Positions 16,480-47,547 of a stretch of DNA of 64,000 bases are shown piece by piece. The notes beneath the pieces were generated by a model, which saw nothing but the letters and a program-made list of their open reading frames with translations, searched no databases and was not told the DNA's origin. The translations under genes were made by a program, and so were the position numbers. Source of the stretch: Phytoseiulus persimilis (taxonomy: Eukaryota > Arthropoda > Arachnida > Mesostigmata > Phytoseiidae); the NCBI GenBank assembly GCA_037576195.1, contig CM075103.1, positions 16,492,001 to 16,556,000 of the forward strand, given 5' to 3'. Position 1 is the first letter of the stretch; each line of letters begins with the position of its first letter.

Positions 16480-16605
16480 ATCGTTATTGCGCACGATACG
16501 ACTCTGTGGACACTGTCGTTTGGAAGTGAACACTGTGAAGTGAGTGTGTGTGACTCTCGTGTAAAGTGACCTGCCGGTGAAGGTACTACAAGGTGCGACA
16601 AGAAG

Positions 16606-19425: not shown

Positions 19426-19435
19426 GGCAGGGATA

Positions 19436-21116: not shown

Positions 21117-21546
21117 CTGTCTACCACAGTGCATCCGAGAGAGACAACCCTGCACCATATTCGAAATGAGTCCGGAATTCTTCCCGTGTGACTGCTTGAT
21201 AAGCAACCAGACCTGCATTGAGAAAGCGTCCCCTGGTGTAGCCTGTCTGTTACCGAATGGAACAACGTTTGGCGGACCCAGTATCTGGATTGACTCCTAT
21301 AACTATACACATCAGAAACCACCAGCACCTACACCCGTTCCATCGAAAAGAACAAACTTCCTCCTGATCTACGCGGCATCACTCACTACACTTGTTGTGA
21401 TGTATGCCTGCCCTAACAGCATCACATGCCTGATCCAAACATGGCGGCGGAGGCAGTACCAGCAGTTGAGTAGAACACAACCCACCGCGGACGATCGCCC
21501 AAGCGGCGTCGAGTCACCATATCAGCCCACGGTTGAGAACATCTGA
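21052..21546 (+). CDS. Env-like type I membrane glycoprotein of Copia-C (sense)
   Basis: 164 aa. Signal peptide MILFALLMVAARVAAYF, then an ectodomain with NC-x3-C-x5-CTIF, FPCDC, TC and AC, followed by GGPSIWIDSYNYTHQ including an NYT sequon. A Pro-rich hinge and one hydrophobic span (FLLIYAASLTTLVVMYA) come next, then a basic tail and the C-terminal SPYQPTVENI. ATG 21052 lies inside the pol end in another frame and is preceded immediately by CACAG, a splice-acceptor-like site. Intact although pol is broken. Similarity to 4133-3627 and 32530-32027 is clear along the whole length. Function unproven; Env-like by position, topology and glycosylation. Confidence 0.75.
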   Translation: MILFALLMVAARVAAYFQYEDNCLPQCIRERQPCTIFEMSPEFFPCDCLISNQTCIEKASPGVACLLPNGTTFGGPSIWIDSYNYTHQKPPAPTPVPSKRTNFLLIYAASLTTLVVMYACPNSITCLIQTWRRRQYQQLSRTQPTADDRPSGVESPYQPTVENI

Positions 21547-21625
21547 ATCTCTAAGAATTGGCTCTTCGATGCCACATAAAGACTTCCAATCTGGTCCCCT
21601 AAGGTACTGGTATTCGAATTTATTA

Positions 21626-23208
21626 CTAAGCATAGAACCTTGTAAATCCAGTGCATGATCCTTGAAATTTCATATGCTCCGAGACAGCAGCGAACTCCTC
21701 GTTTCCAACATACTGGTATACGAGAAGTTCGAGCCGCAAAGGAGTGGATCTCTGGACTAGAATACACTTTCTGTCCAGCACTGACTTGCAGAGTCGATTG
21801 TACTCTAATATGGCACCTCGGTACCTCCTGGTGGGGATGGGAAGTCCCATGGACCAAACTTCCGTGGTGGTGACGTCATCAGCCGGTAGGTCGGTAGCTG
21901 CATTCGGAGCACTGAACCCGGTGGTGCTGTCGTCGTCAGACGATGAGCTGCTGCTGTCTGACTCTGTTGTCGGAGACGCAGTGGCGTCCGTCGGAGTTGG
22001 AGTAGTGGTATCAGCTGTAATTGTGGAGGTCGAGAGGGTGCTCGAAGGGGGTGCTGGTGTAGTGCTCGAGTTGACTCGCTTCGGTTTCGATTCCTCGACG
22101 CTCAGATCCAGATCGGTTTCCTCGGCAACGGATTGCTCAATCCATTCGTAGTGAGGCGTATCATCAGCAGATACCTCCGGTGGAGAGACGGCCGTACTAA
22201 GAGTAGGTAACAGCACCTGAGAACTCAGGACTGACCCAGGGACGACGGTTGAGGAAACCAAGATGACAGCAGGAAAAATCTGAAAAAAAACAAAAACGTG
22301 GAAAGTCACATAGTAAGAAAAGAAAAAAACAACATAGGATCTCACTATTCAAAATAATCAAGAGAACTCACCGACTCTCCCATTGAAGAAATTCCTGACG
22401 ACTTCAAAATTGGAAGGGACGAGGAAATCAACTCAGGGAGGGAGACGGTCGGGAGAAGAACAGGTTTGATTATCGACAGAGGCACCTCTGAGGTGCTCTC
22501 GGGTTGATAGTCCGTTGTTCGAGAATGGACCGGAGTCTGAGTAGAAGATGCTCGGACTGTAGCCGTGCTCGTGCCAGAGCGGAATTTGGCTAAGTCGGCA
22601 TGGAGCCTTGATGTGAAATCAATATGCCCCTGCACGACCCGACTCCATCCAAGAAAAAATTCGTTATCCCGGATGTACGCTTCGAGAGCTGCATCACGGG
22701 ATGATTCAAGAGAGTCCGACTCATGACGAGAAAATGAACCAGGGAGCGATGCGGATACAGATCGCAACGTCCGAGTTGGACTAATGAGAACAGGGGTCGG
22801 AACACCGTCACTCTCGGAAAAAGCATCGTATAGTGGAGTGAGTGGCAACCCAGAGGGAACCACTCTCTGAACGACAGAGGAAGAATCAAGTGATAGCTCT
22901 AGAAAGGTCTCGCTAGAAAGAAGTACCGGAGTCACGTCAGAAACAGAAGATGACTCCTGACGATGTGAAAACGACGGCGAGACATAGCTAGTCTCAAGCT
23001 GGGGAATGTCGGCCCATGAAGCCAGCATTTACTGAGCACCGTGGATGCTCTCTGCTGAATGGCTTAAACATGGAAAGTGCTCAAACGGGTGGCATGAGGA
23101 CCAAGTGAATGAGAGGCCCTGGAAAACGTGGGCTAAAATGGTCAGGATGACCACAACCACCAAAGCACTAAGGAAACCCCCGACACCGTAGAGAACACGG
23201 GGAAACAT
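21626..23208 (-). pseudogene. asB of Copia-C: antisense mucin-like membrane protein
   Basis: Minus strand. The first in-frame ATG is 23208, followed by a hydrophobic segment (FLSALVVVVILTILAHVF). A TAA at 23029-23031 is in frame, followed by a long Ser-rich region (to about 22376). A well-formed intron (donor GTGAGT next to GAGTCG, polypyrimidine tract and TTTTTTTCAG, about 22279-22375, phase 0) joins the last exon. That exon is Ser/Thr-rich (PTPTDATASPTTESDSSSSS) and ends with EYNRLCKSVLDRKCILVQ and a final C-terminal Cys. The last exon aligns with asB of Copia-D (31571-31975). Inferred topology: short cytoplasmic N-terminus, mucin-like ectodomain. The TAA may be decay or lie in an unrecognised intron. 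Confidence 0.6.
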
Positions 23209-23472
23209 CACGAGAGCGACAATGTCCGTACAGTTGCGAATGTGAAATGAAGTAATCACATCACTCCGGACATAATCTCGGCCTTAAGTAGGAAAGTGTA
23301 AAAGAGTATTGACACTCTGACCCCAGAAATGAGAGACACCATGATCAAACGAACCGAATTGTTTATCTTTATTCTGTAAAAAGAGAAAAGCAAAATAATT
23401 GCCCAGAAAGCCAAAACAAATTGACTCCAGAGGCTGTAATGCCTAGAAGCGCAGAAAACTGCGGCAGAACGA

Positions 23473-25083
23473 TCAAGTTCGTTTACAATAACGAATTGAC
23501 CCTCCAACACCACACTCGCTGGATGCCTCTCGGGCAGAACAAGATACTTGAGATGGAACCGGATGATTTCCATCAACAAGCAGGCACTCCGAGCCAATAC
23601 GATGGCGACATTTCCACTCATCATCAAATCGAGCACACCAATATGCTCGGGTGGAGATGATGAAGCGAGGAGGAGTGGTTGAAGGAGTCGATGAGACTGT
23701 CGGAGATGGAGTGGTAAAGTCATCATCCTCCGAAGACGGAGCGGGAGTGGTAGAAGCAGAGGTGAAGCCCTGCCCACCACTGGCATTGGTTTCGGTTGGA
23801 GACCCAGGAGTGAGACGGGTGGTTGTATGGGATCCTGAAGATCCATTCAAGGCAAGCACCCAGACGAGTCCTCCTGGGAAACAATCCAAAATAAAAGAAA
23901 ATTACCCCATCTGATCATTCCGATAGTTTCGCAATGGATGGAAAGTGGTTAAAAGTAAAACTCACCAAACAGGAGGGATGCTGTGAGAATCAAGAGCACC
24001 CACCTCCGTCGGTACGTAGAAGCCACCAATCGAGTGAAGAAGGCCTGAATTGCGGCCCGGACACCACGTGAAGCCTGAAGGGATCGAGTCCCCAGGAGCG
24101 GACTCTCCCACCGGAGAGCGGAGTGGGCTCTCTGATGGTGGATCAGTGGATGAACTCACTCTTGAGACCACGTAAGAAATCTTGATTTGATCTGACTTGA
24201 TGATATCGATTTCGTGGGAAAGATGATTGATGTTGGCTGAGTTTCTTGAAATTTTCGCTTTCAACTCCTGATTGAAAGTGTCCTGGAACTGGAACTTCAA
24301 ATCCAGTTGGTCGGTCAAGACTTTGATGTTTGATTCAAAGGACCTGAATGTTGACTCCAAGTCAACCGCGCGCTCGGCAGTGGTGGAGAAGTTTTTCTTC
24401 ACCGTCTCTTCTAGCCGACGGACTTTACCATCGATCTTATGAACAAGGTCCTTTATGTTGTCCATATCGCCCGAGAGCGCGTACTCGGTTGAAGGAGCCG
24501 AACTGGGAGTTTCAGTCGCTCGGTGACTGACCTTAAGCTGGAGCTCGGTCACCTTTTGACGTAGTTCTGAGATGAGACTCTGAAGGTGACGAGCCTGATC
24601 ATGGGATACCATGCTCCCAGCGATGAAATCCTGACGCAGGCCCAGTCCGGCCTGATCTTGCTGAGTCAGGTGAAGTGTGGCTTTCTGTTCCTCCAAGGTG
24701 GCTTTCATCGACTCCAGAGATTCGATGACACCAGTGACCACGGGAGTTTGAACTACCGACTTCGCAAAAAGGTTGAGCTGCGCCAACAGATTGGTGTAGT
24801 TCTCAGTGAAAACCTCCTGCTGAGAACTCAGCTGATGAACCTTACCAAACAAGTCGTACACTCGCTGGAGTTCCGAAGAGCGTTGCAGAGACTCTTCACG
24901 ACACAGCTCAAGGCTGTTTTCAACGTTCACGATTCGATCTTACACCAGTTTGCCGTAGTTAGCAGCCAAAGCAGATTCCTGGACGTTCACCATAACCAGG
25001 TTCCCATCCGGCGGCCGGGGGACCGCCGGCGCAACCACCTCAGACGGAGGCCTAGGAACAAGTTCAAACTTCTTGTCTTCCAT
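23473..25083 (-). pseudogene. asA of Copia-C: antisense coiled-coil type II membrane protein
   Basis: Minus strand. ATG 25083 begins a Pro-rich head, then VMVNVQESALAANYGKL, which aligns with VTVNVQESGLVSEYGKL in Copia-D. A TAA (about 24953) interrupts the frame, which then continues as a 300-residue heptad-rich region (NYTNLLAQLNLFAKS aligns with NFSSLLTQLNAFAKC). A frame break near 24070-24110 precedes RRRWVLLILTASLLFG. An intron at 23874-23965 (GTGAGT, TTCCCAG, phase 1) falls within the membrane segment. Exon 2 supplies its second half (GLVWVLAL), a Thr/Ser/Pro stalk and the Cys domain YWC-x8-KC-x7-CLLV. A TATA-like GATATTTAAGG lies about 100 bp upstream. Function unknown. Confidence 0.65.
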
Positions 25084-25703
25084 GACAACAGGCTGGTAAA
25101 ATTTGAATACCTGAGGTGGCGGCGAGGAACTGGAGGTGAACAGTCGCGGCAAGATGGAGAAGGAAGAATGAACTCTAAAAGACGAGTACGACCTTAAATA
25201 TCCACGATTTGAGAGAGAACCTCGATTGAGAAACTCTGAGGACATCTTCCAAGACAACAGGTGACAAAGTCCACAGAGACAGACTAAACAAAATCCAGAA
25301 TGAACTTAGAAAATTACGATCATAGAAGTGTGAGAAGCACTTGAATCAAGAAACTGACTCGTGAGAAAGCTCCAGCAGAGTTCACAAGAACTCAGCATGA
25401 TACAGTTGGAATCAAGCACGTTGTATACACCTTGACCAAAGCCACATGTAGACAGCAAAGGCTGTAAAGTGTAGGAAGATGTAGGGGTCGAATTTCGATC
25501 AACCCCGCTGAGGAACAAATGAGATGAATCCTCTCAACGAAGAGTGGTGGATGACGGTCCGGTGAATAAGGGGCAACACGGAAGTGGTTCACATCCCTAA
25601 CCACTGGTTTTCTGTTTTTGAAACACTTGTGGCGTGAACACGAAGAAGACAACTGATGCATCAGATTGCTCTTGTGCCCGAACGACAACAACTGTAGTGC
25701 ATC
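25084..25703. promoter_or_regulatory. Divergent intergenic region of Copia-C
   Basis: Separates asA (leftward) from the accessory ORF (rightward). An asA promoter candidate, GATATTTAAGG on the minus strand, lies near 25193. No other ORF is supported. The analogous region in Copia-D is 28152-28727. Confidence 0.35.
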
Positions 25704-26278
25704 ATGCTGGACTTGGAGAAGATGAGCCCTGAACAGTTGGTGCTCCATGCCAGAGCTACGCTGGTGTTTCCATACACAGATTTATATCACACAGCCAGCC
25801 TGGAACATTTCTCGAAATCACCACACCATTCCTCAATATAAGTATCGACCACTGGTCGCTCCCCTGTTTGGACGAAAGCTGCAGGGATTGCAGCAGAGTG
25901 ACCAGGATGCACCCAAGCAGGCTCAGACGTCACCCTGGCTTCGGCGGACCAACATGGGTCATACCCTGCTTTGGGTATGTAAACCTCCGCACTAGGTATA
26001 TCAGCCGCCCAAAGACCACCAGTGCAGTGAAGGAGGCCTACCACAAGCTCATCAAGGAGCCCATCTATGCAGATTCCGGGCCCCAGTTCGACGAATCGGT
26101 AATGCAAGCCTCCCGCCAACAAATTCACGAGGTTAAGAACTGGCGCCACAAAGGAATCATACACTCAAAGGTGCTGGATAACATGAGGGAAAATACAACC
26201 CCTAGATACAAGAAAGACTTTATGGCTATGGTTAGAGGAGTATTGTTATCAGATCTTATGTCAAGAATTCAAGAATAA
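25704..26278 (+). pseudogene. Sense accessory ORF of Copia-C before the 3' LTR
   Basis: ATG 25704 starts MLDLEKMSPEQLVLHARATL and runs 45 codons to a TAA at 25839-25841. The open reading then shifts, and another frame (RPKTTSAVKEAYHKLIKEP ... MVRGVLLSDLMSRIQE) reaches a stop at 26278. Occupies the same position as the 229-aa ORF of Copia-D (28151-27462), but I see at most weak similarity at the N-terminus. No known domain. Probably a decayed gene; it might instead be two chance frames. Confidence 0.35.
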
Positions 26279-26553
26279 CCGACTATGTATCTGAACACCA
26301 CTCTGAGTCACTGAAATGTGAAACTGACATGGTGTTACTCCAAAGTATAAGGCATACGTATGGTATCAGGGTTGGGTTTGACGGCTACAGAGCCATTCTC
26401 CAGGAAATCCGGGGCCAGTGTTTTACCTGGCAATAACACCCCACATACTTATGTCCTGCTGATAAGTGCATGAGAGCAGGACACCGATTTGAATCATTAC
26501 TAACCACAAGTGATTGTTATCCCTAGTATGAGACTGTTTCATCTAAGGGAGGG
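26279..26553. other. Copia-C 3' untranslated region and polypurine tract
   Basis: No ORF. Ends in AAGGGAGGG (26545-26553) immediately before the LTR start TGTTGAG, the expected plus-strand primer site. Confidence 0.6.
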
Positions 26554-26898
26554 TGTTGAGAAATATCGTTACACTTCAGTATCTGAAACATGTCCCAACT
26601 GCTCACACCCGTAACGGGGACAAGGACAAGTCGTGTGCGTGATTACGCCACGGGTTTTCAGCGCCGAGCTAAGACGTGTGGCCTCGGCTCGAAGGCTACC
26701 CGCTTCGAGCCGGGCCCCGGTCAGCTCACGCTTTCCCTACTGGTATATATACAGCTAATAAAGAAGCTTCGCTCCCGAGGAGCTACGCATTCCCTAACCG
26801 GAACTCTGTCTGTTTATTTGGTGCCGTGACCTTTCAGCTTCCAGAGAACATTCCAGATCAGTGTCTGCCGACTGCCTTCAGGGAACGAAAATCCAACA
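26554..26898 (+). repeat. Copia-C 3' LTR
   Basis: 345 bp, TGTTGAGAAATATCG to CCAACA, with TATATATAC and AATAAAG. Complete at the 5' side, unlike the left LTR. Directly followed by the Copia-F gag fragment. Confidence 0.85.
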
Positions 26899-27030
26899 TT
26901 TGCGTTTTGCCTTCCGGTGTGTTCGCTTGATCTGGTGCTGGTGGGTTGAGTTTCCCGACGGTTACTGGCCAGGCATACGGTTCTCCATCTAGTACGGATG
27001 GCATGACTGTGCGCCATGGTATGTAGTTCT
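26899..27030 (-). pseudogene. Copia-F gag fragment (left half)
   Basis: Near-identical to 8020-8150 of Copia-A gag. It is continuous in the original element with 37383-37596: the Copia-D insertion separates them and duplicated GTTCT (27026-27030 and 37378-37382). The other side is cut by the Copia-C 3' LTR. Confidence 0.85.
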
Positions 27031-27369
27031 TGTTGGATATTTGGGCTCACTAGCTAGTTGGCGAACAGTCTCAATCTGAAAATGGGCTGAAGATCACGGC
27101 ACAAAATAAACAGACAGAGTTTCGGTTAGAAACATCTAGCTCCTCAGAGCTGTGCTTTATTAGCTCTGGTATATATACCCAGGGGAAAGTACCGTAACAG
27201 GTGGTAAGCAGATCCGAAGCTGGGTTGCCTTCGGATCTGTGTCACGACATGCGAATGCAATTCTCCGAAGTGTCAGAGGTGAACTTCGTGTTCACCTCTA
27301 CCTCTGACCACTGACCGTAATCACACTGACGGGTTTCAGATACCCGCAATATGGCTAAATAATGCATCA
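27031..27369 (-). repeat. Copia-D 3' LTR
   Basis: 339 bp. Minus-strand start TGATGCATT after the polypurine tract at 27370-27379, end CCAACA. Nearly identical to 37039-37377 (TATATATAC versus TATATACAC is the difference I see). Confidence 0.93.
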
Positions 27370-27461
27370 TCCCCCTTTAGATGAAAGCCGAGTGTTGATT
27401 ACCTAGATTACATTCTACGTATCATGACTACCTAATATCTGTACAGTATGTTTAACTTTAC

Positions 27462-28151
27462 CTATGACCACTCAAATTTGGGGGGTTCTGTCCAGTTGTT
27501 AGGAGGTGCGTCGCTCCTTCCCTCGTAAATAAATGAATCGAATCCAACATTTCTTCTGATGAAGCGTTTGAAGAAATCAACGCACTCCACTGGGGCAGGG
27601 CATCCCTCCCTTTTGTCTCTTCTGCTCCTGAACAAGAGCATGAAGTTGATGCGGTCAATCAACCACTGGATGATCAGTCCTCGTCCGATACACTGAATCG
27701 TCTTCTTGAAGATCCGGGATTCTCCTTCCCATCTTCGTTGGATTGATCTCTCCGATGGGAGAACTTCGTGGGTCACTGCCATGTAGAATGACAGCCCGTA
27801 CAGGTACGCGTCGTAACCTGTGAGTGTGTCAGGTTTGAACTCATCCGTGAGTTCTGCCTCTGCAATCTTGGTTTTGAACCATTGTCTCAATGGTTCTGGC
27901 ATGTCCTCTATCCCATGTGACAGAGCTCTCCGGTCGATGATGTTCCAGTTGTTAATATACTGGCCTCCAAGGAAAGTATTCGTATTCTTTCCTGATAGGT
28001 GAAGTGATGAGTCGATCTTACACTCACCAGATTCACATCTGCATGCCATAAGTCCGTCAAGATCGTTTACCTCTGGGAGGTGTGCGAAACGTAGTGCTAA
28101 TTTGTTGTAGCGGATGCGGTGTGATGAGATGTCCAACTGGGGTGATGCCAT
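27462..28151 (-). CDS. Sense accessory ORF of Copia-D (229 aa, unknown)
   Basis: Intact 229-aa frame between the antisense genes and the 3' LTR, in the element's own sense. Starts MASPQLDISSHRIRYNKL. A CRCESGEC cysteine cluster lies near residue 38, the middle is soluble and globular-looking (LRQWFKTKIAEAELTDEF), and a moderately hydrophobic stretch (LIIQWLIDRINFMLLF) sits near residues 160-175. I see no signal peptide and no known domain. It ends about 90 bp before the LTR and starts 576 bp from, and divergently to, asA. Position parallels 25704-26278 in Copia-C. I cannot assign a function. Confidence 0.55.
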   Translation of the reverse strand: MASPQLDISSHRIRYNKLALRFAHLPEVNDLDGLMACRCESGECKIDSSLHLSGKNTNTFLGGQYINNWNIIDRRALSHGIEDMPEPLRQWFKTKIAEAELTDEFKPDTLTGYDAYLYGLSFYMAVTHEVLPSERSIQRRWEGESRIFKKTIQCIGRGLIIQWLIDRINFMLLFRSRRDKREGCPAPVECVDFFKRFIRRNVGFDSFIYEGRSDAPPNNWTEPPKFEWS

Positions 28152-28727
28152 GATGAAGACTTTTCTACAGGTTTAAGAGCACAAAATTCACTATGGAAGG
28201 TTGACGTCTTACTACCTCGAAGGTTTTCTTCAGTATGAGCTTGTCTTTGAACTTTTCTGCTTTATACGAACTGCCCTCTATGGGCCAAAGGCCGGGCTGT
28301 GGTGTGCCCCCTGAACGTGTTGTTCGGCTGTTCAAAGCATTCTTTATGTTCTCACGAGTGTTCGATACCGACGAGTAGGTACTAACGCGAGACCGCTGTT
28401 TTCTATCTCTTTGAAAACAGCATCTTTGTTATTAGAGGCACTCGTGTATATGTTCTCTTGTTTTTCCGAGTCCGAGTCGCTCAAGTTCTAAGCACTCAAT
28501 CCTCTCATCGATATTTTTACAGTAGATTTGTCTAAATAGTATCGTTTATCGGAATTTTTCAGTCGAGAACTGCTTGTTCTGTTCCGACATTGGTATCTAG
28601 GCTACTAATCATAACGAACGATCAGAGGGGGAAAGTCTAGACCCTTTATAACCAGTATCTGAGGTCATGAGGCCATTACAACTCCTCACGAACTCTGGTC
28701 AAACGCTCGTTTGGTCTCTACTGCATC
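28152..28727. promoter_or_regulatory. Divergent intergenic region of Copia-D
   Basis: 576 bp without a supported ORF between the divergent accessory ORF and asA. On the plus strand CCCTTTATAACC (near 28640) lies about 80 bp before the asA ATG, a reasonable TATA position for a short 5' UTR. A minus-strand promoter would serve the accessory ORF. Inference from layout and a single TATA-like box. Confidence 0.35.
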
Positions 28728-30392
28728 ATGGATCCGAACCAATTGCCGTACAGTGTCGTTCCATCACCATCACCACCGCCTCGCCTCAATCATCCTCCAG
28801 GTATTCAATCTCCCGTTCCAATGAACTACACTGGTTATCGTCTTCCGGTGCCAGTTAATGTTCATGGGGTTCCTATGCCTGTTCCTGTGACACCTGGTCA
28901 AATGATTGTTCACCCCAACAACGATGGGAACGTTGTGACTGTGAACGTTCAGGAATCAGGACTCGTGTCTGAGTATGGGAAATTACTCATGGATCGACTT
29001 GTTCAAATGGAGAATGCAGTCTCCATTTATCGAAGTGAAGCTCTCGCCATCCCCAATTCAAACATTGATATTGGAGTGCTTCATGAGGAAGTCAAAATTC
29101 TTCGCTCCAATCTCGACACCTATGCCGATAATTTCTCCAGTCTTCTTACTCAGCTCAATGCATTTGCTAAGTGTGTTCCCAAGACTGCCGCTCTTGATGA
29201 GGTCATCAAGTCCATGGGTCAAATTCATGATCAGGTACAGGACCAAGGATTGGCCATCAAAATGACTCGTACAAGTCATAGTGGACTCTCTGATCGTCAA
29301 ACTGAATTTGCGTCAAAAATGGCCACAATCGAACAGATTCAACTTGTCCATGAAATGATTGCCAGTGTCCGTACTGACGTTGCCAAGGTTGTAAGTCAGG
29401 TTGGAGTCATGTCCTCCAAAGATCGTTCTCCCGACTCATCCACCACGGGGAATGTTGATTCCCTGACGCGAAGCATTGCTGAATTGAGGGACAACATTCA
29501 TCGTCTTGAGAACAAGATCATCACGGTCGATAAGTCAGCCAAGAAGCATTCTGAGATAAACTCAAGAAACATCAATGAGGCGCTTACCAAGATTACACTC
29601 ACCGAGTGTTCACTCAAGTCTCATGATGATGCCAGCAAGATGAACTGGGCAGCGAACTCGGGAAATCTCCAAGAAGTTCGCGATCAACTCGCACGTAATA
29701 GTGCCGCCGTTGTCAACATCCTGGTGTCGCTGAACGAAATCTCAGCACATGTGGACCGAGTTTACACTATGTGTAATAACTTACAAACGAACCAGTCATC
29801 GTTCGAAGAAGAGCATGAAGATATACCACCACCGCCGCCTGCTCGAAGGAGATTCTTGATCCGTCTATTTCAAGAACTTCTGAACTATGTTCTCACATGC
29901 AGAGGGTTCTGCATTTTTCTCATTCTTGTACTGATTATGGGTATGTACTTCACCATTCTAGAACTATCAGTAATGAATTTCTAATGGGGTCTTATAAATT
30001 AAATCTCTTTCCTTCTAGTTGGAAGTATCTCCTTCGGCATTTACCGCATTCATCATGCCGGTGTTGTTGTGGTGACCTCCTCAGCAATACCTGACCTCTC
30101 CGATGACGACTCAATCGTTCCCGCAAGTGATCCACCCCCAGTGATTCAGCAGCGTCCTGTGAACCACACAGGACTCGTCAAGAAGTCCGATTCGGAAAAT
30201 GTTGTGCTTCGCGACTATGGATGCAAACGTAACCCTCAGGTCTCTGGATGGATATGTATTCATGAGACCTCTAAGGCATGCTTGAGTGTTCCCGGCAATA
30301 AGCCAGTTACCCAAACAGTCCTGTGTACTCACACTATTGACAATAGTGTCTGTGGTGCTGGCAAGCCCACCACTGTTTGTAGTCGTGTTTGA
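28728..30392 (+). CDS. asA of Copia-D: antisense, spliced coiled-coil type II membrane protein (about 528 aa)
   Basis: Exon 1 (28728-29940) encodes a Pro-rich head, VNVQESGLVSEYGKL, and then about 270 residues of amphipathic heptads with few prolines (coiled coil). PPPPPARRR and a hydrophobic span (GFCIFLILVLIM) end the exon. The 78-bp intron (29941-30018; GTATGT donor, CCTTCTAG acceptor) is phase 1. Exon 2 (30019-30392) gives a short hydrophobic continuation, an acidic/Pro stalk and the Cys domain YGC-x10-IC-x7-CLSVP, then VLC, VC and VC. Both exons are open throughout. Homologues: 25083-23473, 1472-1977 and exon 2 at 47179-47547. Inferred topology: N-terminal coiled coil in the cytoplasm, Cys domain outside. 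Transcription opposes gag-pol. Function unknown. Confidence 0.75.
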
Positions 30393-30664
30393 TTTTACGC
30401 CTGTGGTTAGGCGGTTTTTAATTCGAAACCTCAATCACTTTCAGACCGTCACTTGATCTTTGGAAGTCGACGTCTGTATCTTTTGATGAGCTTGATTGTA
30501 TTGGCAACGAAATAAATCAAAACATTGGCCTGGAGATACGGAATCTTGTATTTCTGTGTTTTCGTAACACACGATGGCTCCTCCCCCTTTTCTCTACAGT
30601 CGGTAATACTCTGTTTCGTTCTGGCAGTTACTGCCATTCATCGGCCTTCCAATCAGTCGTTAGG

Positions 30665-31975
30665 ATGCAGGTCCGCGTTTCAAACAGTGCGAGTATTGCT
30701 TTTCTATGTTCAGTTTCCATGTGTCTGTTGTTTATTTGGACAATCATCCTGCACATTGGAAAACCTGACTCAGTGTCCAAATCAGGAGCGAGTATAGTGA
30801 CCTCTCTACTCTCCTCTAATGAGTCTTCTGAACCTGAGCGTGACTACATGAGGGTGACCATCGATTCATCATTCCGTTTTTCTTCTCCCAGTTCCGGTGT
30901 ATCACCCACGGAACCCAACGCTGATGCCCAGGTTAGTGTGGGCACGACCAATGCTCCACCACATTCTGAACATCATGTACCATCTCCATCGCTCGCTCCA
31001 TCTTCAATAGAGCCGTTCCGCACTGCCTCGACTCTGCATCCAACATTCAGAACTGAACTTTCAACAAGTGCACCTATATTTACGACAAAGACCTCCGTCT
31101 TTCGTCCCTCCACCGCTCAACTCTTGATGGAGCTGAGGGAACGCTTGTTCACCGAGTCGGGTCAACAACCCGATCGCATTCCTGATCGGCACCACCGATA
31201 TCCAGTTCGGTCACAACGACCAATAATCCACGGTAGTCCTTTTTCTAAGCCTATGAGTGTGAGTGTCAAAGCTCCACCACTCATGTCATTTGAGAATGCT
31301 GTATCTTCAAATCAACATTTGTCTCAGCGTGGCCTGAATGGACAATCAAGAGTTTCTTCTTATTTTGACCTCCAAGGAAGTGATTCTAACTTATCATCAG
31401 TCAGAGTGAACCCGCGGACGGCTTCGAATTCTTCATCACCGTCATTGCATTCGTTCACAACGACCACTTCCTCAACCACTCGGAAACCAATGAGCAAAGT
31501 CATGGCCTAAACAACTACCTCAACAACAACGACCACATCAAAACCAGCCAGCAAGCCATCAACATCCACCATGACCCAGGGGTCTTCATCCGAGAGCCTT
31601 TCTCTCAGTACCACGGTCTCACCAATTGCTGATGAGAGTCTTGTACAGAAAGTGGCTGCCTCTTCCACTGAGACATCATCAGCAGTGGTCCCCTCAGAGT
31701 ACTCAACGCCTCGACCGACCACTACCAGTGTTCCGCCGCCTGAAGTTCTCCCCATGCTCTTCCACATACCTTCCAATAGGTATCAATGTGAAATCATTTC
31801 ATACAATCGACTATGCAGATCTATTGTAGACCGGACATGTGTTCTTGTGAAACGAATGACCAGACTCAATCATCATTTATCTGTTGTCCCATACAAGAAA
31901 GATGATCATGTCCTGGATGAGGAACATTCAAAGATTCTACAGGTCTGTGATGGTCATCGTAACTTCATTGCGTGA
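30665..31975 (+). pseudogene. asB of Copia-D: antisense mucin-like type II membrane protein, one in-frame stop
   Basis: ATG 30665, a short N-terminus and a hydrophobic anchor (IAFLCSVSMCLLFIWTIILH). About 300 residues rich in Ser, Thr and Pro follow, consistent with an O-glycosylated stalk. A TAA at 31508-31510 interrupts a frame that is open on both sides, continuing with more Ser/Thr/Pro. The C-terminus (SYNRLCRSIVDRTCVLVKR, then a final Cys) aligns with asB of Copia-A and -C. No intron is needed here, whereas Copia-A and -C have introns at other points. The single stop may be a recent nonsense mutation or readthrough. Lies 272 bp after asA, in tandem; ends 51 bp before the convergent env-like stop. 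Confidence 0.65.
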
Positions 31976-32026
31976 AAAGTAAATTTTCAATTTGAACAAT
32001 GAGAGGGTCATTTATTTTACTATGAA

Positions 32027-32530
32027 TTAGATATTCATAACAGTTGAGCTGTATGGAGATTCAGGGCTTGGTTCCTCTCTCGAATCTGGTGGCTGTTCTG
32101 TTTCAAGCCGCTGATACGCACGTCGGCGTAAAGTCTGAGTTGTGCAAGCGAACAAGCTGTACATCACATGGAACAATACAAGTACAGTCAACATGCCTGC
32201 ATATAGATGAATGAAATCCAGTCCATTCGCTGGAGCTGGGACTGGCTGAGGTGGCCCGCTGTGGGTAAAGTTGTAATAGTCTATCCAGATGTCTGATCCA
32301 CCCTGAACTTTTCCGTCTGGATGCATACACACAACCCTAGGTGATGCTAATTCCCTACATGCATCGTTCGAGTCAATGCAATCTACCGGGAAAATTTCTG
32401 GATTACGTTCGTATAATGTGCATGGTTGTTTCAGTCGGATGCAGATGTGCGTGCAATCTTTAGCGTATTCGAAGTACGCGGCGACCTTGGTCGCCATCAT
32501 GATTGTGATCATGAGCGTCTTCAGTTGCAT
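32027..32530 (-). CDS. Env-like type I membrane glycoprotein of Copia-D (sense)
   Basis: 167 aa from ATG 32530. Signal peptide (MQLKTLMITIMMATKVAAYF), ectodomain with DC-x3-C-x5-CTLY, DC, AC and VC, then GGSDIWIDYYNFTHS with an NFT sequon. A Pro-rich hinge, one membrane span near residues 108-130 and a basic tail ending SPYSSTVMNI follow. The CDC pair of Copia-A and -C is VDC here, so one cysteine is lost. It overlaps the RNase H ORF end (32460) by 71 bp in another frame, with GGTTACAG just upstream as a possible splice acceptor. Intact. Convergent with asB, the stops 51 bp apart. Assignment as Env-like is by position and topology. Confidence 0.75.
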   Translation of the reverse strand: MQLKTLMITIMMATKVAAYFEYAKDCTHICIRLKQPCTLYERNPEIFPVDCIDSNDACRELASPRVVCMHPDGKVQGGSDIWIDYYNFTHSGPPQPVPAPANGLDFIHLYAGMLTVLVLFHVMYSLFACTTQTLRRRAYQRLETEQPPDSREEPSPESPYSSTVMNI

Positions 32531-34084
32531 CTTTTCTGTAACCGGCAAGATTTCGTAAGCGGACGAATTGGGTTTCTGGTAGGGCTTTCGTTCCCAAATC
32601 AGAGATATTCAATTCTGAAGGGCAATGGATTATCTTGAAATCTCCATTTTCAATCTTTTCTCTCAACCAGAACTCACGAGTCTCAATGTGCTTGGAGCGC
32701 CGTGTTACCTGGTTCTCGGTGAGAAGCTGGATACAGGCGGTGTTGTCCACTCGTAGTATCGGTGTGATTGGATACCCAATCTCTCTGAGCAGCCTAGCTA
32801 GCCATAAGCATGACTTTCCCATTTCGCTACAGGCCAAGATTTCACTCTCCATTGAAGAGAGGGAAACAAAGCTCTGGCGTCTGGATGACCAGATCACGCC
32901 TGCTCCACCGATCATAATGAAAGATCCGCTGGTGCTTCTTCTTGTTGATCGACATCCACTCCAGTCAGCATCGCAGTATGCATTGATACCGTCTGAGATG
33001 TCTCCGGTATACATGGGTCCTAATGTTTTGGTGCCTGAGAGATATCTCAATACTCGAAGACCAATTTCCCAAAGATGCTTGGTTGGTGCTGCCAAGTAGC
33101 GCGATAGAAACCCAACCGAATAACTGATGTCTCCGCGGCAAGCCACCGAGGCGAACATCAATCCCCCTACTAATTCTCTGTACTTTAAGTTCAGATCAAT
33201 CTTTCCTTCAAATGCAGTTTTTGATGTTGCATCAATGGGGGTGGCAATGGTTTTACAGTTCTGCATTTGGAATCTATCAAGTAGCTCATTTATGTACCGA
33301 GCTTGATTGATCCTGATTGTCCCTCTGTCTGGGGAAACAATGATTCTCAATCCCAAAAGAAACTCCAATTGCTTGGATGTCATTTCAAAGGTCTTCTCAA
33401 GTTCTTTTATGATCTCTTTGTTCAGTTGCTCGCTCTTTTAGGCTATAAGGCAATCATCTACATAGACGAGAACAAAGGCTCTTTTGGGGGGGTTGAGAAG
33501 TACAGGCATGGATCTTGTGAACTTTGAGTGAGTTTGACTGCTTTCATTTTAAGCAAGGTGTCACTCAGCTTTTTGTTAAAACATCTTGAGGCCTGTGCAG
33601 TTCCATAGCATGCCTTCTTTAGTTCACAAATTCTCTTGGTTCCATCTCCAAACCCATCCGGTTGTCGCATATAGAGTTTGCGATCTAACGGAGCTGTCAG
33701 GAAGGCTGTGCAAACATCAGCCTGAACCAAGAAAAGCCTCTCACATGCCGAGATAGACAATATAGTTCTAATTGTCTCAAAACTCGCTGTGGGGCTGAAT
33801 AGGCTTCCATATTCAATTCCAGGGCGCTGTTGACACCCTCGGACAACAAGACGAGCTTTCCTTTTGATAAGTTTTCCATCTTTATCCTTTTTTAAAGAAA
33901 ATACCCATCTGTTTGACAGAACATGCTGTCCCGGAGCAGGGTCTACTAATCTATAGACCTCATTCGTTCTGAATGATTCAAGCTCTAATGCCATTGCAGC
34001 ACACCATTCATTTTTGAATCTAGAGCGATTCACATCATTCAGGTTCAGTGGCACGCTGGCCTCTTGCTCCATAGAACTATTCAA
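32460..34084 (-). pseudogene. Copia-D reverse transcriptase and RNase H
   Basis: Minus strand: NEWCAAMALELESF, NRWVFSLKKDKDGKLIKRKA, CTAFLTAPLDRKLYMRQ, then the catalytic VLVYVDDCLIA near 33450, reached only by a shift at a C-run (33484-33490). FLLGLRIIVSPDR and RNase H follow (YCDADWSGCRSTRRS, SSMESEILACSEM, HIETREFWLREKIE). The ORF ends at 32460 inside the env-like gene. Two frame breaks in otherwise full-length domains; the shift at a homopolymer could be an assembly error. Confidence 0.85.
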
Positions 34085-34186
34085 TGTAGATGGAAAACCA
34101 CAGGAAGCAGCATTGGCTTCACCTGCTTGATATCTATCTGGTTTTCTCCTAATTCTCTTACTAGTTCTACTTCCCTCGGTTTGTCC

Positions 34187-35385
34187 TTACGTCGCTGCCG
34201 GTACTCTATTTGATGAACTGCGCAGTCCGTATTCTTGGGCAGGCGGGCTCGTGATGACCGAATCTTGTTCGGGAGCTATACCAAGCTCTTTGTCCACGAG
34301 GCGTTCGCTATCCTTTGTGACTCCAACACCTTCTTCATCATCGGTGGGGTCAGTTGGTTGTTGCTCCTCTTCATCTTCTGGTGGTTCTTCTGTGGTTGTT
34401 GGTTTGTCTTCTTTCGATGGTATCGGAGGAAATTTGTTCTTATCATCTTGTAGTGGTGCTGGTTCCTTCACTACGATGTCTGGGATACGATGCACTTTGG
34501 TGGTCCCTTTTTCTAAGACGCGATAGCTGAGTCCGTCATCATCTATCCCTACGATTATACCAGGGATAGCTCTCTTATCCAGTTTGCCCTTTGTTGGATT
34601 GATGTTGTAGAACCAACGACGAGTGCCGAAACGACGTACCCTTCCTAGGTATGGTTTGTGACCAGTGATGATTTCGAAGGGTGTCTTCTCTTCTGGTGAT
34701 ATGATTTTGATGGTGTTGAGACAAAACGTACCAAATGAAACGGCCTCAGCCACAGCTGCCTTGCTTAGGTCACTATCGATGATCATTTACCTTGCAAGAT
34801 CAAGAAGAGATCGATTCAGTCTCTCAGAAACCCCGTTATGCATCGGAGTCCGCGGAGCCGAATAAGAGTAGTCACAACCCGTTGAACGAAGGTAGGTTTG
34901 GAGCCTCTTATTCTGGAATTCGGATCCTCCATCTGAATGCAGGTGATATACCTGTTGTCCGGTTCTTGATTTAAACCACTTTGTGAAATCCACGATTCGA
35001 TCATAGACCTCTGTTTTATCACGGATGAAGTACGTTTTTCTGAAACGACTCTTGTCATCAGTCAATGTGATAAAAGCAGTATGTCTACCATAAGAGGGTA
35101 CGCTTACAAAGCATGTGTCGCTATGTATCCACCCGATACGAGGGGAAATCGAGCTTATGGGTTTCGATCGGAAACTTGCTCTATGCATCTTTCCTTTGAT
35201 GCAACTGTCACAACTGACAAAATCGGGGATAACTTCATAGCCTTCTCTTTGTAACAATGCTTTGAGCCAACCAACGTTGATATGAGCGAAACTTCGGTGC
35301 ATTTCCATAAGGCTGACCTTCATCGGGCTCTCGACCTGATGTCCTTCAGGGATATCTTCGGCATACAACACGTAAATCCGTTTTT
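34187..35385 (-). pseudogene. Copia-D integrase
   Basis: HHCC finger (HRSFAHINVGW, then CDSCIKGK), core Asp in IHSDTCFVSVPSYGR, Asp in HLHSDGGSEFQN and Glu in HNGVSERLNRSLLDL, so all catalytic residues are present. A TAA at 34787-34789 interrupts the frame right after LLDLAR, and the same frame continues with the C-terminal domain (GKLDKRAIPGIIVGIDDDG) and an acidic linker to 34187. A one-base shift near 35385 (A-run) separates it from gag-PR. Confidence 0.85.
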
Positions 35386-36900
35386 ACGAGTTGCGTGTAT
35401 ATTGACTTTTCCTTGAGTCAATATGATGGATTTGCGGCAGACTTGAATCTTGAAGTTGTCATCTGCGAGCTTGGAGACGGAGATCAGATTTCTCCTTAGC
35501 TTGGGAACATACTTGGGGACTTCCTTCAGTTGGATGGTGTGACGTTGGTTGTTGTGCACAAATGTCACACGGACTGTACCGAACCCAGGAGCGCTCAGGG
35601 TTCGGGATCCTCCCAATCTGATTTGACGAGCTTGATGATATGGAGTGTATTCTATCATATGATCTTTTGTGTTACTCATATGGAAGTTTGTTCCACTATC
35701 AATGATGTACTCATTTTCTGATGTCATCATGTGAGTCTCCATGGTACCGGCTTCGCAGTTCAAGGCTTCTGTGATGTGAGCACGGCCATAGTTTGCATTG
35801 GCCTCGGTTTGCTGCCTGCGGTTTGATGGACGCTTGCCTGTCCTTTTTGCTGACGACGACTGATGAGAACTACTCGAACCGGGTTGTGAATAGGTGCTGG
35901 AGTGATATTGGTTCTTGCCTTGATGAGGTCGGTTGTTGTAGATCTTCTTGGAAGCAGTACACTGAGATTTGATGTGTCCCTGACGACCACAGTTATAACA
36001 TGTCGTTGTAGTAACTGTGCGACTGACGTTTGTCCTTCTCTGGATTGTACTCTTGCGTCTATGCCCTTTGTTTGACACACGCATTCGGGAATACAGAGCT
36101 GTTACCTCGTTGGTGTCGAACTTGCCTCTCCTGAGTGCTTCACTTTCAATTGCCAGTTTGAGGTGGGCAAATGATCTTCCTGAGTCCTTTCTGGCTGTGA
36201 ACGCCTGTTTGAATGGTTCCCAGTTTGACGGAAGTGATTCAAGGAGAATGGTGATCTTAAGGTCATCTGGAGTTTGAACACCAAGTGCTTCAATATGACT
36301 GGTTATCTGACTGAAGCGGAAGAGGTTCTCTGATGCTGTTTTGTTCTGCTGGTACTTGTATCCCATGAGTTTTGCTAGAGCCAACTGTTTAAGTCCACCA
36401 TTGGTTAATGAGAACTTTCCAGTAATTAGTCTCCACATTTCTGGAGCGTCGATCGTCAATGAGTTGTGAGCGAAGAGGGACACTGCAAGTGATGACTGCA
36501 GGGATGAAAAGAGTGTGCATCGTGCCGCTCGATTCCCAGCGATGTATCTTTCCATCTGCTTCTTCCCCGCTGGTTTGTTTTGATCAACTGGTAGTGGTGG
36601 TGCCAGATTGCCCAAGGTGACGTCGAGTGCGAATGGGTCCGCATCAAGAGCAGCTGGTATAAGCACCTTCCACTCCTTGTAGTTACTGCCATCTAACCTG
36701 AGCACCACGCCGTTGCGATTACGATGACGTGTGCCCATGTTCAGATCATCTCCAATGCCATCGTCGCTTTGCATGAGGTTCATACCGCTTGTTTCGCCGA
36801 TTCTAATAACCGATGAGCCTGGTCTTGCGTCACCTAAATCACTGTAGCCGTGGGAGCTTGCGGAATCTTCAAGTGTGGCCGGATTCTCTGCGGGATCCAT
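35320..36900 (-). CDS. Copia-D gag and protease (526 aa open frame)
   Basis: ATG 36900. N-terminus MDPAENPATLEDSASSHGYS; copia gag region (LRLDGSNYKEWKVLIPAALD, GNRAARCTLFSSL, LLESLPSNWEPFKQAF); CCHC knuckle CYNCGRQGHIKSQC near residue 310. A Gln/Ser-rich basic linker and the protease (IIDSGTNFHMSN, RLGGSRTLSAPGFGTV, YVPKLRRNLISVSKL) follow. Open for its whole length; the last 20 residues are out of frame relative to integrase, so the true polyprotein would continue across the shift near 35385. Closely related to Copia-C gag. Confidence 0.88.
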   Translation of the reverse strand: MDPAENPATLEDSASSHGYSDLGDARPGSSVIRIGETSGMNLMQSDDGIGDDLNMGTRHRNRNGVVLRLDGSNYKEWKVLIPAALDADPFALDVTLGNLAPPLPVDQNKPAGKKQMERYIAGNRAARCTLFSSLQSSLAVSLFAHNSLTIDAPEMWRLITGKFSLTNGGLKQLALAKLMGYKYQQNKTASENLFRFSQITSHIEALGVQTPDDLKITILLESLPSNWEPFKQAFTARKDSGRSFAHLKLAIESEALRRGKFDTNEVTALYSRMRVSNKGHRRKSTIQRRTNVSRTVTTTTCYNCGRQGHIKSQCTASKKIYNNRPHQGKNQYHSSTYSQPGSSSSHQSSSAKRTGKRPSNRRQQTEANANYGRAHITEALNCEAGTMETHMMTSENEYIIDSGTNFHMSNTKDHMIEYTPYHQARQIRLGGSRTLSAPGFGTVRVTFVHNNQRHTIQLKEVPKYVPKLRRNLISVSKLADDNFKIQVCRKSIILTQGKVNIHATRKNGFTCCMPKISLKDIRSRAR

Positions 36901-37038
36901 AGAACTTGTTGTGTATGCACCGGAATATCACTTTTTGATCACTTCAAAAGTCACAATCAAGTCTACACAGAGTCACACACTTATACACCGCACTATCTGA
37001 TCAAGAATGTTCGCAGATTCAATCGTGCTGATAACGAA
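36901..37038 (-). promoter_or_regulatory. Copia-D leader with primer-binding candidate
   Basis: Immediately after the 5' LTR (minus strand) is TTCGTTATCAGCACGA (37023-37038), matching the Copia-A leader motif. The gag ATG follows 138 bp later. No strong splice donor seen. Confidence 0.5.
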
Positions 37039-37377
37039 TGTTGGATATTTGGGCTCACTAGCTAGTTGGCGAACAGTCTCAATCTGAAAATGGGCTGAAG
37101 ATCACGGCACAAAATAAACAGACAGAGTTTCGGTTAGAAACATCTAGCTCCTCAGAGCTGTGCTTTATTAGCTCTGGTATATACACCCAGGGGAAAGTAC
37201 CGTAACAGGTGGTAAGCAGATCCGAAGCTGGGTTGCCTTCGGATCTGTGTCACGACATGCGAATGCAATTCTCCGAAGTGTCAGAGGTGAACTTCGTGTT
37301 CACCTCTACCTCTGACCACTGACCGTAATCACACTGACGGGTTTCAGATACCCGCAATATGGCTAAATAATGCATCA
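37039..37377 (-). repeat. Copia-D 5' LTR
   Basis: 339 bp, the partner of 27031-27369. Contains GGTATATACACC-type TATA and CTTTATTAG context. Flanked on the right by the duplicated GTTCT (37378-37382). Confidence 0.93.
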
Positions 37378-37596
37378 GTTCTTGCCATCGAGTGCGAGGA
37401 CGATGTTGGTTGCAACTCGTGGTCTTGGTCCACACACGATGGGATCTCAGGATGTGCTGGACCTGGGTTCTGGATCAACCTCGAGACCGTCCTGTCCGCA
37501 GTGAACGAAGCCGTGGGGGCCTTGGGCATCTCTGGCGGATTGCTGTCTTGACATCGTGAATCGTGATGCTGAACTGTGACTTCATTGACTCACCGA
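37378..37596 (-). pseudogene. Copia-F gag start and leader (right half)
   Basis: Matches Copia-A 8150-8355: gag codons for the N-terminus, ATG near 37550 and the leader ending in ATCGGTGAGTCAATG (minus strand). Terminated by the poly(A) tail of LINE-B. Confidence 0.8.
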
Positions 37597-39055
37597 TTTT
37601 TTTTTTCGACGAGATGTTCGAGGCCCGGGGAATCCATTTCCGGACACCTGGGAAGGAGGCCCAGGCAGTGTGAGACTCACCCCACCAAAAGGGTGGGGAA
37701 TACTCACTAACCCGCTAAGGCGATTCTCGGCTCAGTAGTCCTCGGTCGCCCTGCAAAAGCCGGGAGTGACGCCGGAACTGGTGATTTGTGCGCAATAATT
37801 CGGGACCTCGCTTTCGACGCGGAGTTAAGAGCCTGTGGCCGGCACTGATTGCGCCAAGCCAGGACCATCGATGTTGTGAGGAGAGATTGTGGCGAGAGAG
37901 CCCGGCCGGGCAAGGGCCGCGGCAGTGACGTGAGAAGAGAGAACGGCATCTTCCATTTTGATAATCTCCGCGGCGAACCTGGCCGTCGCCGACCAACTCC
38001 CTCAGTCTCCGATCATGTATGCAACGATCGCCGGACAGGTGAGTGGTGGACCGAGAGAGGAGGTGTTGAGGGAGGATTGACGGCATTGGAGAGCTGCTGG
38101 ACAGGACTCGAAAGGAATGTTTGGCGTCGTCTTCGTCTCCGGTTAAAAAAAGTACTCACGTCGGGGAATTCAGTCTGCGGATACGGTAGAGGTATTGAGC
38201 AAGAGACCCGTGGTTGGTAAGGAGCTGTGCCAGTGGGTAAGTCAGGCTGCCGCAGTTGGCTGCGAGCCAGGTCGAGATGTCGGGGATGAGGGTGGCCGTC
38301 CAATGGCCGGGGGCCCCCGGAGGAATCGCAGACCAGCTGCGCTGCAATTCCTTGACAGAGTCGGCTCTGGAGAAAGATGATGCTTCCTCATCTTCGTGTG
38401 AGAAGTCATCAGGGTCGCCACTGAACTCGCGGACTTCGAGCTCCCTGCAACGAAGATCGTAAGGAATCTGTCGTGAGATAACCTGTGCAGCGACCGTCGA
38501 GACGGTACGGTTCGCCCGAGAGAGGCGGAAGGAGAGTGGGCGCTGGGTTCTGGCCAAGAGTCGCTGGATAGTTTTCTTGGCTGCACAGGAGCCCTAGATG
38601 GGAGCCGCATAGAGGAAGATGCTGTCAACAACGGAGGCGAGGATCCTGCGGCGGGGGTCGTGGGCCCCACGGGTTTTGGGCAATAGGCGTGCGACGGCTT
38701 GGGCGGCCTTGATTGCCTTGCCGGAGGCATAGCGGATGTGTGGAGTACCCGTGAGCCCTCCATCCAGCATCACGCCAAGGTATCGAGCCACTGGCTGGGA
38801 GTGAATCTCGTGCCCGTCGAGGGTGATGCTCACTGACGGTAGGCGCTTGCGGCCATTCAGAAGGATGGCAACTGGATTCGGAGGGGGACATGGAAAGGCC
38901 CCTCGGTCTCATACAGGCGCTGATTTCTGCCAGGGAGTCGTTCAGTATGAGCTGCAGGGTGTCGGGGTGTGGTCCGGCCGCAACCACGGCCAAGTCGTCT
39001 GCCAAGATGTCAGCGGATCATCTTGCATTTACAAGACGACGGGGAAGAAATTGTT
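37597..39055 (-). pseudogene. LINE-B: R1-like non-LTR element, 3' half with poly(A)
   Basis: Minus strand from about 39010: RT palm motif LADDLAVVAAGPHPDT (the ADD of the A/YADD box), VARYLGVMLDGGLTGTPHI (thumb region), and in later frames QRLLARTQRPLSFRLSRA and LIPDISTWLAANCGSLTYPL, then LLTNHGSLAQYLYRI, the end-of-ORF2 motif before a C-terminal Cys/His knuckle. 3' UTR to about 37607 and poly(A), seen as T10 at 37597-37606. Truncated upstream of the ADD motif with several frameshifts. It inserted into the Copia-F leader; no target duplication recognisable because the other side is rearranged (hAT-1 at about 39060). Confidence 0.7.
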
Positions 39056-46479: not shown

Positions 46480-47547
46480 ATGAACCTGCGGTCCGGAAGA
46501 CAACTCGAGGTGCAGCCAGCGGCAAGATCTCCACGCGGAGTCGACCCCCAGCTTCGAGCAGCGACATCCGAAGACAACCGAGAGCCAAGGAGAGTCAACC
46601 CGAGCAGTGCATCGCGATGGGCGGCCACAAGGACAAGGCAGGAAAGGCAGGAAACCGGGCAAGGATCAGAAGCGCCCTCAGAGGCCAGCAGCATGGGCTC
46701 CTACTGGAGCACGGTACCGGAGGAGGATCCCGAGAGCGGACGATCCGGCCCGACAGCGAGTGAGCTGTCGGATCTTGACTGGAGGAGGACCATCTCGGCG
46801 CGAGCTGAGAGGCTTGGTCGTGAAGGCATCGTGTTTGGCTCGCCAGAGCAGTGTAGCCGGGAGCTCTGGCTTTTTCGGACGAGTTCAACGGGAAGATCCG
46901 TGGACAGTTTCGGGAGGCCCCGAACGCGCAGTGATCGGAGCTGCTCGGTTCAGCCGAGTGACAACAGCAGCGGGGCCAGCGAGTTCGAGCTGCTCTTGGG
47001 GATGTGCCAGTGTGGGCGAACCCGAGCGCCCGCGGCTGCCGGGCTTGTCGTGTTGTTGATGGTGCTTGGGGTCGTGGCTGGTAAGTTATATTGAGTAGTA
47101 TGTTCTGAAAGCGATTTGACGCCCATAGGAGCGCCTACCGACCTGTGTTCCGTATGTGACCATTGATGGGTTTTGCAGGATATTCGGCGACAGCGGAGCG
47201 GCGGGCCGTCACGGAACAGCCACGAGATTAAGCAAAGGTTTGCCGTGCTGGCGGAGCGCACGCACACCAGCACGGAGAGGTGGGCGATCGGGAGCCAGAG
47301 CCCGGAGGAGATGCCTGCTATCCGGACAGGTGGGGGCCAGGATGGTCCAGCAGACGTTCGGATATCCCTGGTGGATTTCGTCTGTCGTGTTGTCGAGCAC
47401 CGCTTAGTGTGCTATACTCCTCTGCAGCAACGCTGCGTGGTATTACGCAAAGGTCGCAGCGACAGGCCACGCGAGGTTGTCGCTCGCAGAGGAGTCGGCA
47501 GTCCTATGCCACTTTGTAATAGTTATGAACTGTTTTTCGAGGAGTGA
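46480..47547 (+). pseudogene. asA of Copia-E: antisense membrane protein with intron
   Basis: ATG 46480 (MNLRSGRQLEVQP) opens a 200-residue Arg/Ser/Glu-rich exon ending in a hydrophobic anchor (AAAGLVVLLMVLGVVAG). An intron at 47081-47178 (GTAAGT, GGTTTTGCAG, 98 bp) occupies the same place, just after the membrane segment, as in the other asA genes. Exon 2 contains FVC-x8-VC-x7-CVVLRK, matching the Cys domain of Copia-A asA. The downstream frame is one base off the phase-1 joint, so an indel or alternative acceptor is needed; scored as broken. No coiled coil in exon 1. Opposite in direction to the Copia-E env-like gene. Confidence 0.55.

Follow-up and report, generated by a model that had tools for sequence, protein, structure and literature searches.

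Antisense open reading frames (ORFs) between pol and the 3' long terminal repeat (LTR) are known in the plant Gypsy elements Grande, RIRE2, Retand and PvRetro13 and in the fungal element Boty (PMC7264820 and PMC11963269, in the portions available to us), and sORF2 of the Drosophila MDG1-group elements is described as a membrane protein by which capsids reach the oocyte in the absence of Env (PMC11952523, accessible sections). Here we describe a pair of antisense genes, asA and asB, in Copia elements of the arachnid Phytoseiulus persimilis. The DNA analysed (the window) is a stretch of 64,000 nucleotides with ∼50% G+C inside the 181 Mb genome of this species, and the searches for families covered the whole genome. 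The original prediction, made from the letters of the window, was that diverged Copia elements share a conserved antisense gene pair in their 3' third; homology, place, orientation and open frames hold with held-out profiles in five families, and it is highly probable that asA and asB are genes shared by descent among the families, antisense and fixed in position, and under selection at the protein level in families C and A.

Element C (27031–37377) is a Copia element of ∼10.3 kb on the minus strand. Its two LTRs show a single difference over 339 bp (99.7% identity), the 5-bp target duplication GTTCT lies directly outside both of them and a purine tract is found ahead of the 3' LTR. The Pfam matches, in gene order, are Retrotran_gag_2 (6.9e-14), rve (4.7e-12) and RVT_2 (1.3e-33). 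The LTR pair with its duplication, and the integrase placed upstream of the reverse transcriptase, allow us to classify element C as Copia (Ty1/copia, Pseudoviridae). A usual Copia element is about half the length of element C or element A (∼10.7 kb), and in both of these the additional length sits 3' of RNase H. Read in the sense of element C, RNase H is followed by an env-like gene, asA and asB (both antisense), ORF X (sense) and the 3' LTR; element A has the identical gene order. These elements thus carry antisense ORFs in the interval that defines the aORF-3R type, 3' of pol and ahead of the 3' LTR, and most copies keep them, although many are truncated or broken. The coordinates are collected in Table 1.

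Pieces of the C and A genes were compared by tblastn with 20 copies (L009–L028) and with the window. The order and orientation of asA and asB are alike in families C, A and T, with between-family identities of ∼20–44% over matches of at least 40 residues; some copies are truncated, with one or both genes gone (e.g. L016, L018 and L020). Families D and E carry both cysteine (Cys) modules. When each family was left out in turn and the profile of the remaining families was used, both modules were found in all five of C, A, T, D and E. The best E values for asB run from 6e-06 in the weakest family to 2e-18 in the strongest, and those for asA from 1.2e-05 in D to 1e-27 in A, although the D copy of asA in the window itself reached only 0.051. 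The genome-wide searches gave at least 150 matches for env (150 of 193 candidates scored), 64 for asA from 96 candidates and 69 for asB from 100. Among the env matches listed, 55 of the 64 asA matches have an env within 1.5 kb in a tail-to-tail arrangement, none has one otherwise placed and nine have none near. An asA lies within 6 kb of 48 of the 69 asB matches, all 48 of which are upstream of it on the same strand; the other 21 have none. Relative to the env matches listed, asB is tail-to-tail within 8 kb in 43 of the 69, not so in two and without an env in 24. The matches in these counts are pieces, of which one copy may give several, and layout within a family reflects shared descent; only agreement at the level of families counts as independent. 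The stop-to-stop gap between the converging asA and env genes is 51–95 bp in C, A, T and D. A further candidate family, G (L032), has an antisense frame with a hydrophobic stretch and a G/GTGAGT donor (the slash marking the exon end), but no acceptor was settled; an asA profile built without G fails to detect it, and it was left out of the family count.

The copies of family C were compared with the window copy and those of family A with L022, and pairs sharing a reference are not independent. The ratio of nonsynonymous to synonymous change (dN/dS) for asB exon 1 of C is 0.12–0.22 in five diverged copies, and 0.77 and 1.39 in two close copies with only 7 and 11 changes; for exon 2, six of eight copies give 0.18–0.40, one gives 0.67 on three changes and one is without synonymous change. 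asA of C gives 0.31–0.51 in seven diverged copies, with values of 0.52 and 1.38 on 5 and 10 changes in two close ones. In family A, with three copies for each piece, the values are 0.10–0.12 and 0.36–0.46 for exons 1 and 2 of asB and 0.27–0.37 and 0.21–0.27 for exons 1 and 2 of asA. The comparison genes of C, with seven copies each, give 0.09–0.26 (RNase H) and 0.15–0.42 (the reverse-transcriptase part), and env of C, at 12 places (17 rows, five of them repeats), gives 0.23–0.55 in eight and 1.13–1.57 on 5–14 changes in four. Fisher tests on single pairs yielded 9.5e-11 for C asB, 4.8e-41 for A asB and 8e-08 to 1.4e-14 for asA (four pairs). In C and A, asB exon 1 changes more slowly (dN/dS 0.10–0.22) than exon 2 (0.18–0.46). 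The premise that the frames are not neutral is thus borne out in C and A, with ratios well below 1, and fails for asB of family T, which is indistinguishable from neutral. The sense frames over the same DNA are full of stops: 14, 26 and 24 over asB exon 1 of C, 36, 13 and 23 over asA of C, 13, 21 and 24 over asB exon 1 of A, 31, 15 and 32 over asA of T, and 4–15 over the two asA exons of A. This count took in the C and A pieces and T asA, not T asB, and for the pieces counted it excludes an overlapping sense gene, so the homology does not stem from one. The changes in asB exon 1 of A are concentrated at the third positions of the antisense frame (e.g. 42, 20 and 125 at the three positions).

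The reading of asB in element C stops within a hydrophobic stretch at G/GTATGT, and the frame restarts past CTTCTAG with further hydrophobic residues, the stalk and the Cys module; the 78-bp interval between them contains in-frame stops. Nine C copies were asked for, and in all eight that could be aligned the GT/AG boundaries of the intron are kept. At the matching place the donors are GTGAGT in A, D and E, GTACGT in T and GTAAGT in F, and the acceptors are all CAG (four copies each of A and T, the window copy and L030 for D, L029 for E and L031 for F). The introns at this place in the six families all read as phase 1. The ten intron lengths are 78, 83, 86, 92, 92, 98, 100, 101, 103 and 132 bp; eight of them are not multiples of three, so that only removal of the interval puts exon 2 in frame. 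Family A has a second intron, of phase 0, in asA, which was measured in three of four copies; the fourth did not fit the pattern. Within family C, the asB intron differs from that of the window copy at 5–8 of 77–78 sites in five copies, compared with 2.0–2.2% of sites for exon 1 in four copies and 6.6% in one. An intron, taken as a criterion of a retroviral antisense gene, is present by sequence. Since the conserved phase-1 intron joins the two halves of a hydrophobic segment, splicing of the antisense mRNA is strongly implied. Five of eight C copies have a TATA box ∼82 bases upstream of the asB start codon (ATG), but none of four A copies does, and it was not used.

The two proteins appear to share a plan. 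In C, A and T, a hydropathy scan places a hydrophobic segment of asA among the first 35 residues; after this predicted transmembrane segment (TM), serine and threonine (Ser + Thr) make up 26–41% of each stretch of 80–100 residues, compared (in C and T) with 4–6% of the last 25–36 residues, which lie in the Cys module. An NVQES head is present on asB of C, A and E; asB continues with a long region, basic residues, the hydrophobic stretch cut by the intron, a stalk and a Cys module. The long region has the look of a coiled coil by reading, and gave weak matches only to Pfam coiled-coil families; it is missing from asB exon 1 of F and D in the copies examined. As basic residues precede the TM, the positive-inside rule makes an N-in (type II) topology likely. 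We read asA and asB as type II membrane proteins with a Ser/Thr-rich stalk and a Cys-rich end, and it is the predicted inner part of asB that changes slowest, with the outer parts changing faster. Neither the introns nor this common plan had been noticed in the original prediction. The Cys module of asA aligns by profile with that of asB (P = 2.3e-5, at a probability of 76%), and the two genes are probably paralogues from an old duplication. The Cys part of env was considered as a third paralogue and is unsupported (profile probabilities of 0.2% and 0.4%).

The shared order and orientation, the held-out homology, the introns, the dN/dS values, the stops in the sense frames, the TM with its stalk and the position of asA beside env are the evidence for the following reading: asA and asB would be genuine protein-coding genes of the Copia lineage, read antisense as spliced mRNAs, and their products would be membrane proteins that act with the env-like protein. 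Taken whole, with the function included, we put this at an even chance. Several results count against it. Family T asA is weakly constrained (dN/dS 0.46–0.72 in four copies) and T asB exon 1 gives 1.59, 1.06 and 0.87 in three copies; the T copies are close, and decay after insertion may contribute. Most copies are broken, with a clean asB exon 1 in three of eight and a clean asA in three of ten C copies (window included). The 132-bp intron of the D copy L030 is free of stops and a multiple of three, and this copy does not itself require splicing. In C, the DNA separating asB from asA evolves at a similarly slow rate to asB exon 1 (1.5–5.9% versus 2.0–6.6% of sites), so slow change is not confined to exons. 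Of the asB exon 1 sequences scanned for hydropathy, only that of C is assigned a TM, and in A and T the hydrophobic stretch is cut by the intron and its halves are joined by eye only. asA and asB are without a known domain or homologue in the collections searched: no Pfam family scores above the cut-off for the C and A pieces of either gene or for env, including TRP28 (PF04195) of the Retand-type ORFs, and no homologue of asB exon 1, env or one family T asA was found in a collection of 5.8 billion proteins at E values of 0.001, 0.01 and 0.01, respectively.

The most likely role of asA, asB and env would be that of surface proteins aiding the passage of capsids between cells. The two antisense products, with the small sense env-like protein, would cover either the particle or the cell that produces it. 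On the inner side, Gag or a host adaptor would be bound by the cytoplasmic part of asB; on the outer side, the Cys modules and the mucin-like stalks would bind a partner cell, and capsids would pass from cell to cell, for example from soma to germline. The antisense placement would keep the introns in the genomic RNA, where their splice signals go unread: because the genomic RNA is the sense strand, introns of antisense genes should survive reverse transcription, as expected from the mode of replication. The same placement would separate the expression of asA and asB from that of gag-pol. These features hint at a lineage more virus-like than ordinary Copia. A bolder reading, which we consider less likely than not, is an ambisense, virus-like Copia with gag-pol-env in the sense direction and an antisense unit for two surface glycoproteins made from spliced mRNAs. 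If so, the element would belong to the Pseudoviridae as a transmissible member, would have three surface proteins and would have radiated into many families within a single genome.

The rival that survives best, although we consider it unlikely, is that asA and asB regulate the element, in the manner of HTLV-1 HBZ or of the antisense genes in the plant elements Grande and Retand, or that the antisense RNA regulates by pairing with the sense RNA. Regulation is the role proposed for the plant antisense ORFs (PMC7264820 and PMC11963269, available portions), and the convergence of the genes on env, with 51–95 bp between the stops in C, A, T and D, would suit it; however, a TM, a stalk and a Cys module are ill-suited to a nuclear regulator, and selection in C and A acts on the protein. 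Rather less probable is that the two are surface proteins of the producing cell, not in the particle, and either prevent related elements from entering again or make cells adhere to one another. The surface plan of both proteins and the many related families sharing one genome speak for this; against it, the position of asA beside env in 55 of 64 matches suits a shared task, although it is compatible with a role at the producing cell too. That the pair is a foreign insertion useless to the element (a nested element or captured host genes) would fit with a pair that has no known homologue and with an asB-like gene in family F for which no asA was detected, but it is very improbable, as held-out profiles locate the pair at one position and in one orientation in five families and C and A show purifying selection. 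Codon bias can open complementary frames, but we dismiss almost entirely the idea that the antisense frames are a by-product of constraint on a sense gene, as the sense frames hold 13–26 stops (asB exon 1 of C and A), 13–36 (asA of C and T) and 4–15 (asA exons of A), and the family A changes fall at third positions of the antisense frame.

Copia-B, a further element of the window, had been thought to lack the region altogether. This was not upheld: Copia-B, which together with L031 makes up family F, has an asB-like gene with an intron. The gene is supported by its place, strand, hydrophobic end and intron, the donor and acceptor of the Copia-B interval being as in F, although the match to the asB module is weak and not significant in family F (held-out E values of 0.48 and 0.49, the latter for Copia-B). 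asA was not found in Copia-B or L031 by the profile search. The asB-like gene of Copia-B lies ∼13 kb from its env (61003–61551) because a tandem array (47820–61130) separates the two; the ∼1.29 kb unit of the array repeats the end of the env-like gene and downstream sequence, and a pair of 485-bp LTRs (52589–53073 and 53921–54405; 99.6% identical) lies inside it. The F asB-like gene is without the long charged region, and in L031 a charged sense frame of 328 residues (828–1811, plus strand) is found after env.

The end of the env-like protein tail (PY..T...I or V; e.g. 32030–32100, minus strand) is similar across families C, A, D, T, F and G, and is possibly a sorting or binding signal. A sense AATAAA or ATTAAA lies 10–38 bases past the env stop (e.g. 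32000–32027) in 5/7 C, 4/4 T, 2/2 D, 1/2 A and 0/1 G copies in which the env stop was found (raw counts, without a chance control); it could mark the end of a separate gag-pol-env RNA ahead of the antisense genes. ORF X is a third accessory gene, on the sense strand, in C, with dN/dS of 0.10–0.26 in five of six copies and 1.76 on seven changes in the other, and no Pfam family scores above the cut-off for it. The A version is faintly similar (blastp E = 0.001 in a single pair; P = 0.028 by profile), which is no more than suggestive of one gene common to C and A. In L027 a 741-residue frame with the look of gag and reverse transcriptase adjoins asB and is probably a separate inserted element, and in L012 the 3' end of the element is succeeded by a gag start resembling that of family C, as would be expected if tandem C elements had one LTR in common. 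The repeat at 8016–8357 matches the outer flanks of A and C (26897–27032 and 37377–37597) without an intervening element, which by its sequence is an empty-site relative of the element C insertion site.

Table 1. Predicted features of the elements discussed, numbered and stranded as in the window.
Feature	Position	Strand	Remarks
3' LTR, element C	27031–27369	-	339 bp
ORF X, C	27462–28151	-	Sense; 229 residues; kept among C copies; divergent from asB
asB exon 1, C	28728–29940	+	Antisense; NVQES head, long charged region, first TM part
asB intron, C	29941–30018	+	78 bp; GTATGT to CTTCTAG; phase 1
asB exon 2, C	30019–30392	+	Remaining TM, stalk, Cys module
asA, C	30665–31975	+	Antisense; TM at the N-terminus, then a Ser/Thr-rich stalk and Cys module; in-frame stop (one) in window copy
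env-like gene, C	32027–32548	-	Leader, eight-Cys outer part, one TM, basic tail
gag-pol, C	32460–36900	-	gag, zinc knuckle, integrase, RVT_2, RNase H; several open pieces
5' LTR, element C	37039–37377	-	339 bp
Element A, complete	16198–26898	+	∼10.7 kb; LTRs 16198–16479 and 26615–26898, 97.9% identical
env-like gene, A	20941–21546	+	Open frame
asA, A	21626–23208	-	Two exons; intron 22280–22371, phase 0; one exon 1 stop
asB, A	23476–25257	-	Two exons; intron 23874–23965, phase 1; exon 1 frame broken
ORF X, A	25698–26433	+	Three open pieces in window copy
asB and asA, D	1656–3528	+	asB intron 1656–1747; asB module within 1723–1974; asA 2269–3528 (broken)
env-like gene, D	3630–4181	-	Sense
asB-like gene, Copia-B (family F)	46480–47544	+	Exon 1 46480–47080; intron 47081–47178; second part out of frame

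Few retroelements are known to have antisense genes, and for most of these genes the function is obscure; the present pair has been retained by several diverged families. As the introns are readable only in the antisense direction, the strand, splicing and product can be checked in ordinary host RNA data. If asA and asB are surface proteins, they would offer a new model for how a capsid-only element turns transmissible, and also for the retention of introns by genes antisense to the genomic RNA.

The antisense ORFs of the plant elements and of Boty resemble the present pair in that, in the available portions of the reports, one or more ORFs antisense to gag-pol occupy the same region and are kept in most copies. 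The plant cases differ in being Gypsy-type elements (for some of them, to our knowledge) whose products are nuclear or DNA-binding-like (TRP28 and Smc), with no TM described in those portions; the word intron is absent from PMC11963269. The present genes, by comparison, belong to Copia, lie beside an env-like gene and are predicted to be spliced and to encode membrane proteins. HIV-1 ASP and HTLV-1 HBZ lie in the 3' part of retroviral genomes and are likewise antisense, and ASP is called a membrane protein in the title of one paper. HBZ is spliced. Both differ from our pair, with which they are likened by description only, in being single genes that start in the 3' LTR, in another host and superfamily. 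SIRE1 and the Sireviruses, a plant lineage, are like the present elements, by description, in being Copia elements with an env-like sense gene after pol; we know of no antisense pair in them. Nothing contradicts the expectation that such a pair had gone undescribed among Copia elements of animals in the literature searched (open-licence papers, in the portions available; Repbase lies outside it), in which none is described, and the accessible parts of PMC8220671, PMC5408684 and PMC12440569 report none. What would be new is thus an LTR element with antisense genes, here a Copia, in which they are spliced and form a probably paralogous pair of membrane proteins. By analogy, the nearest functional counterpart is sORF2, which in the accessible sections of its description is Gypsy-type, short, N-outside and on the sense strand. 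Proteins of the sORF2/FAST-like type are short, with the N-terminus out and the C-terminus in, a myristoylation motif and a polybasic tail, whereas asA and asB are read as N-in type II proteins, so that the topology would differ.

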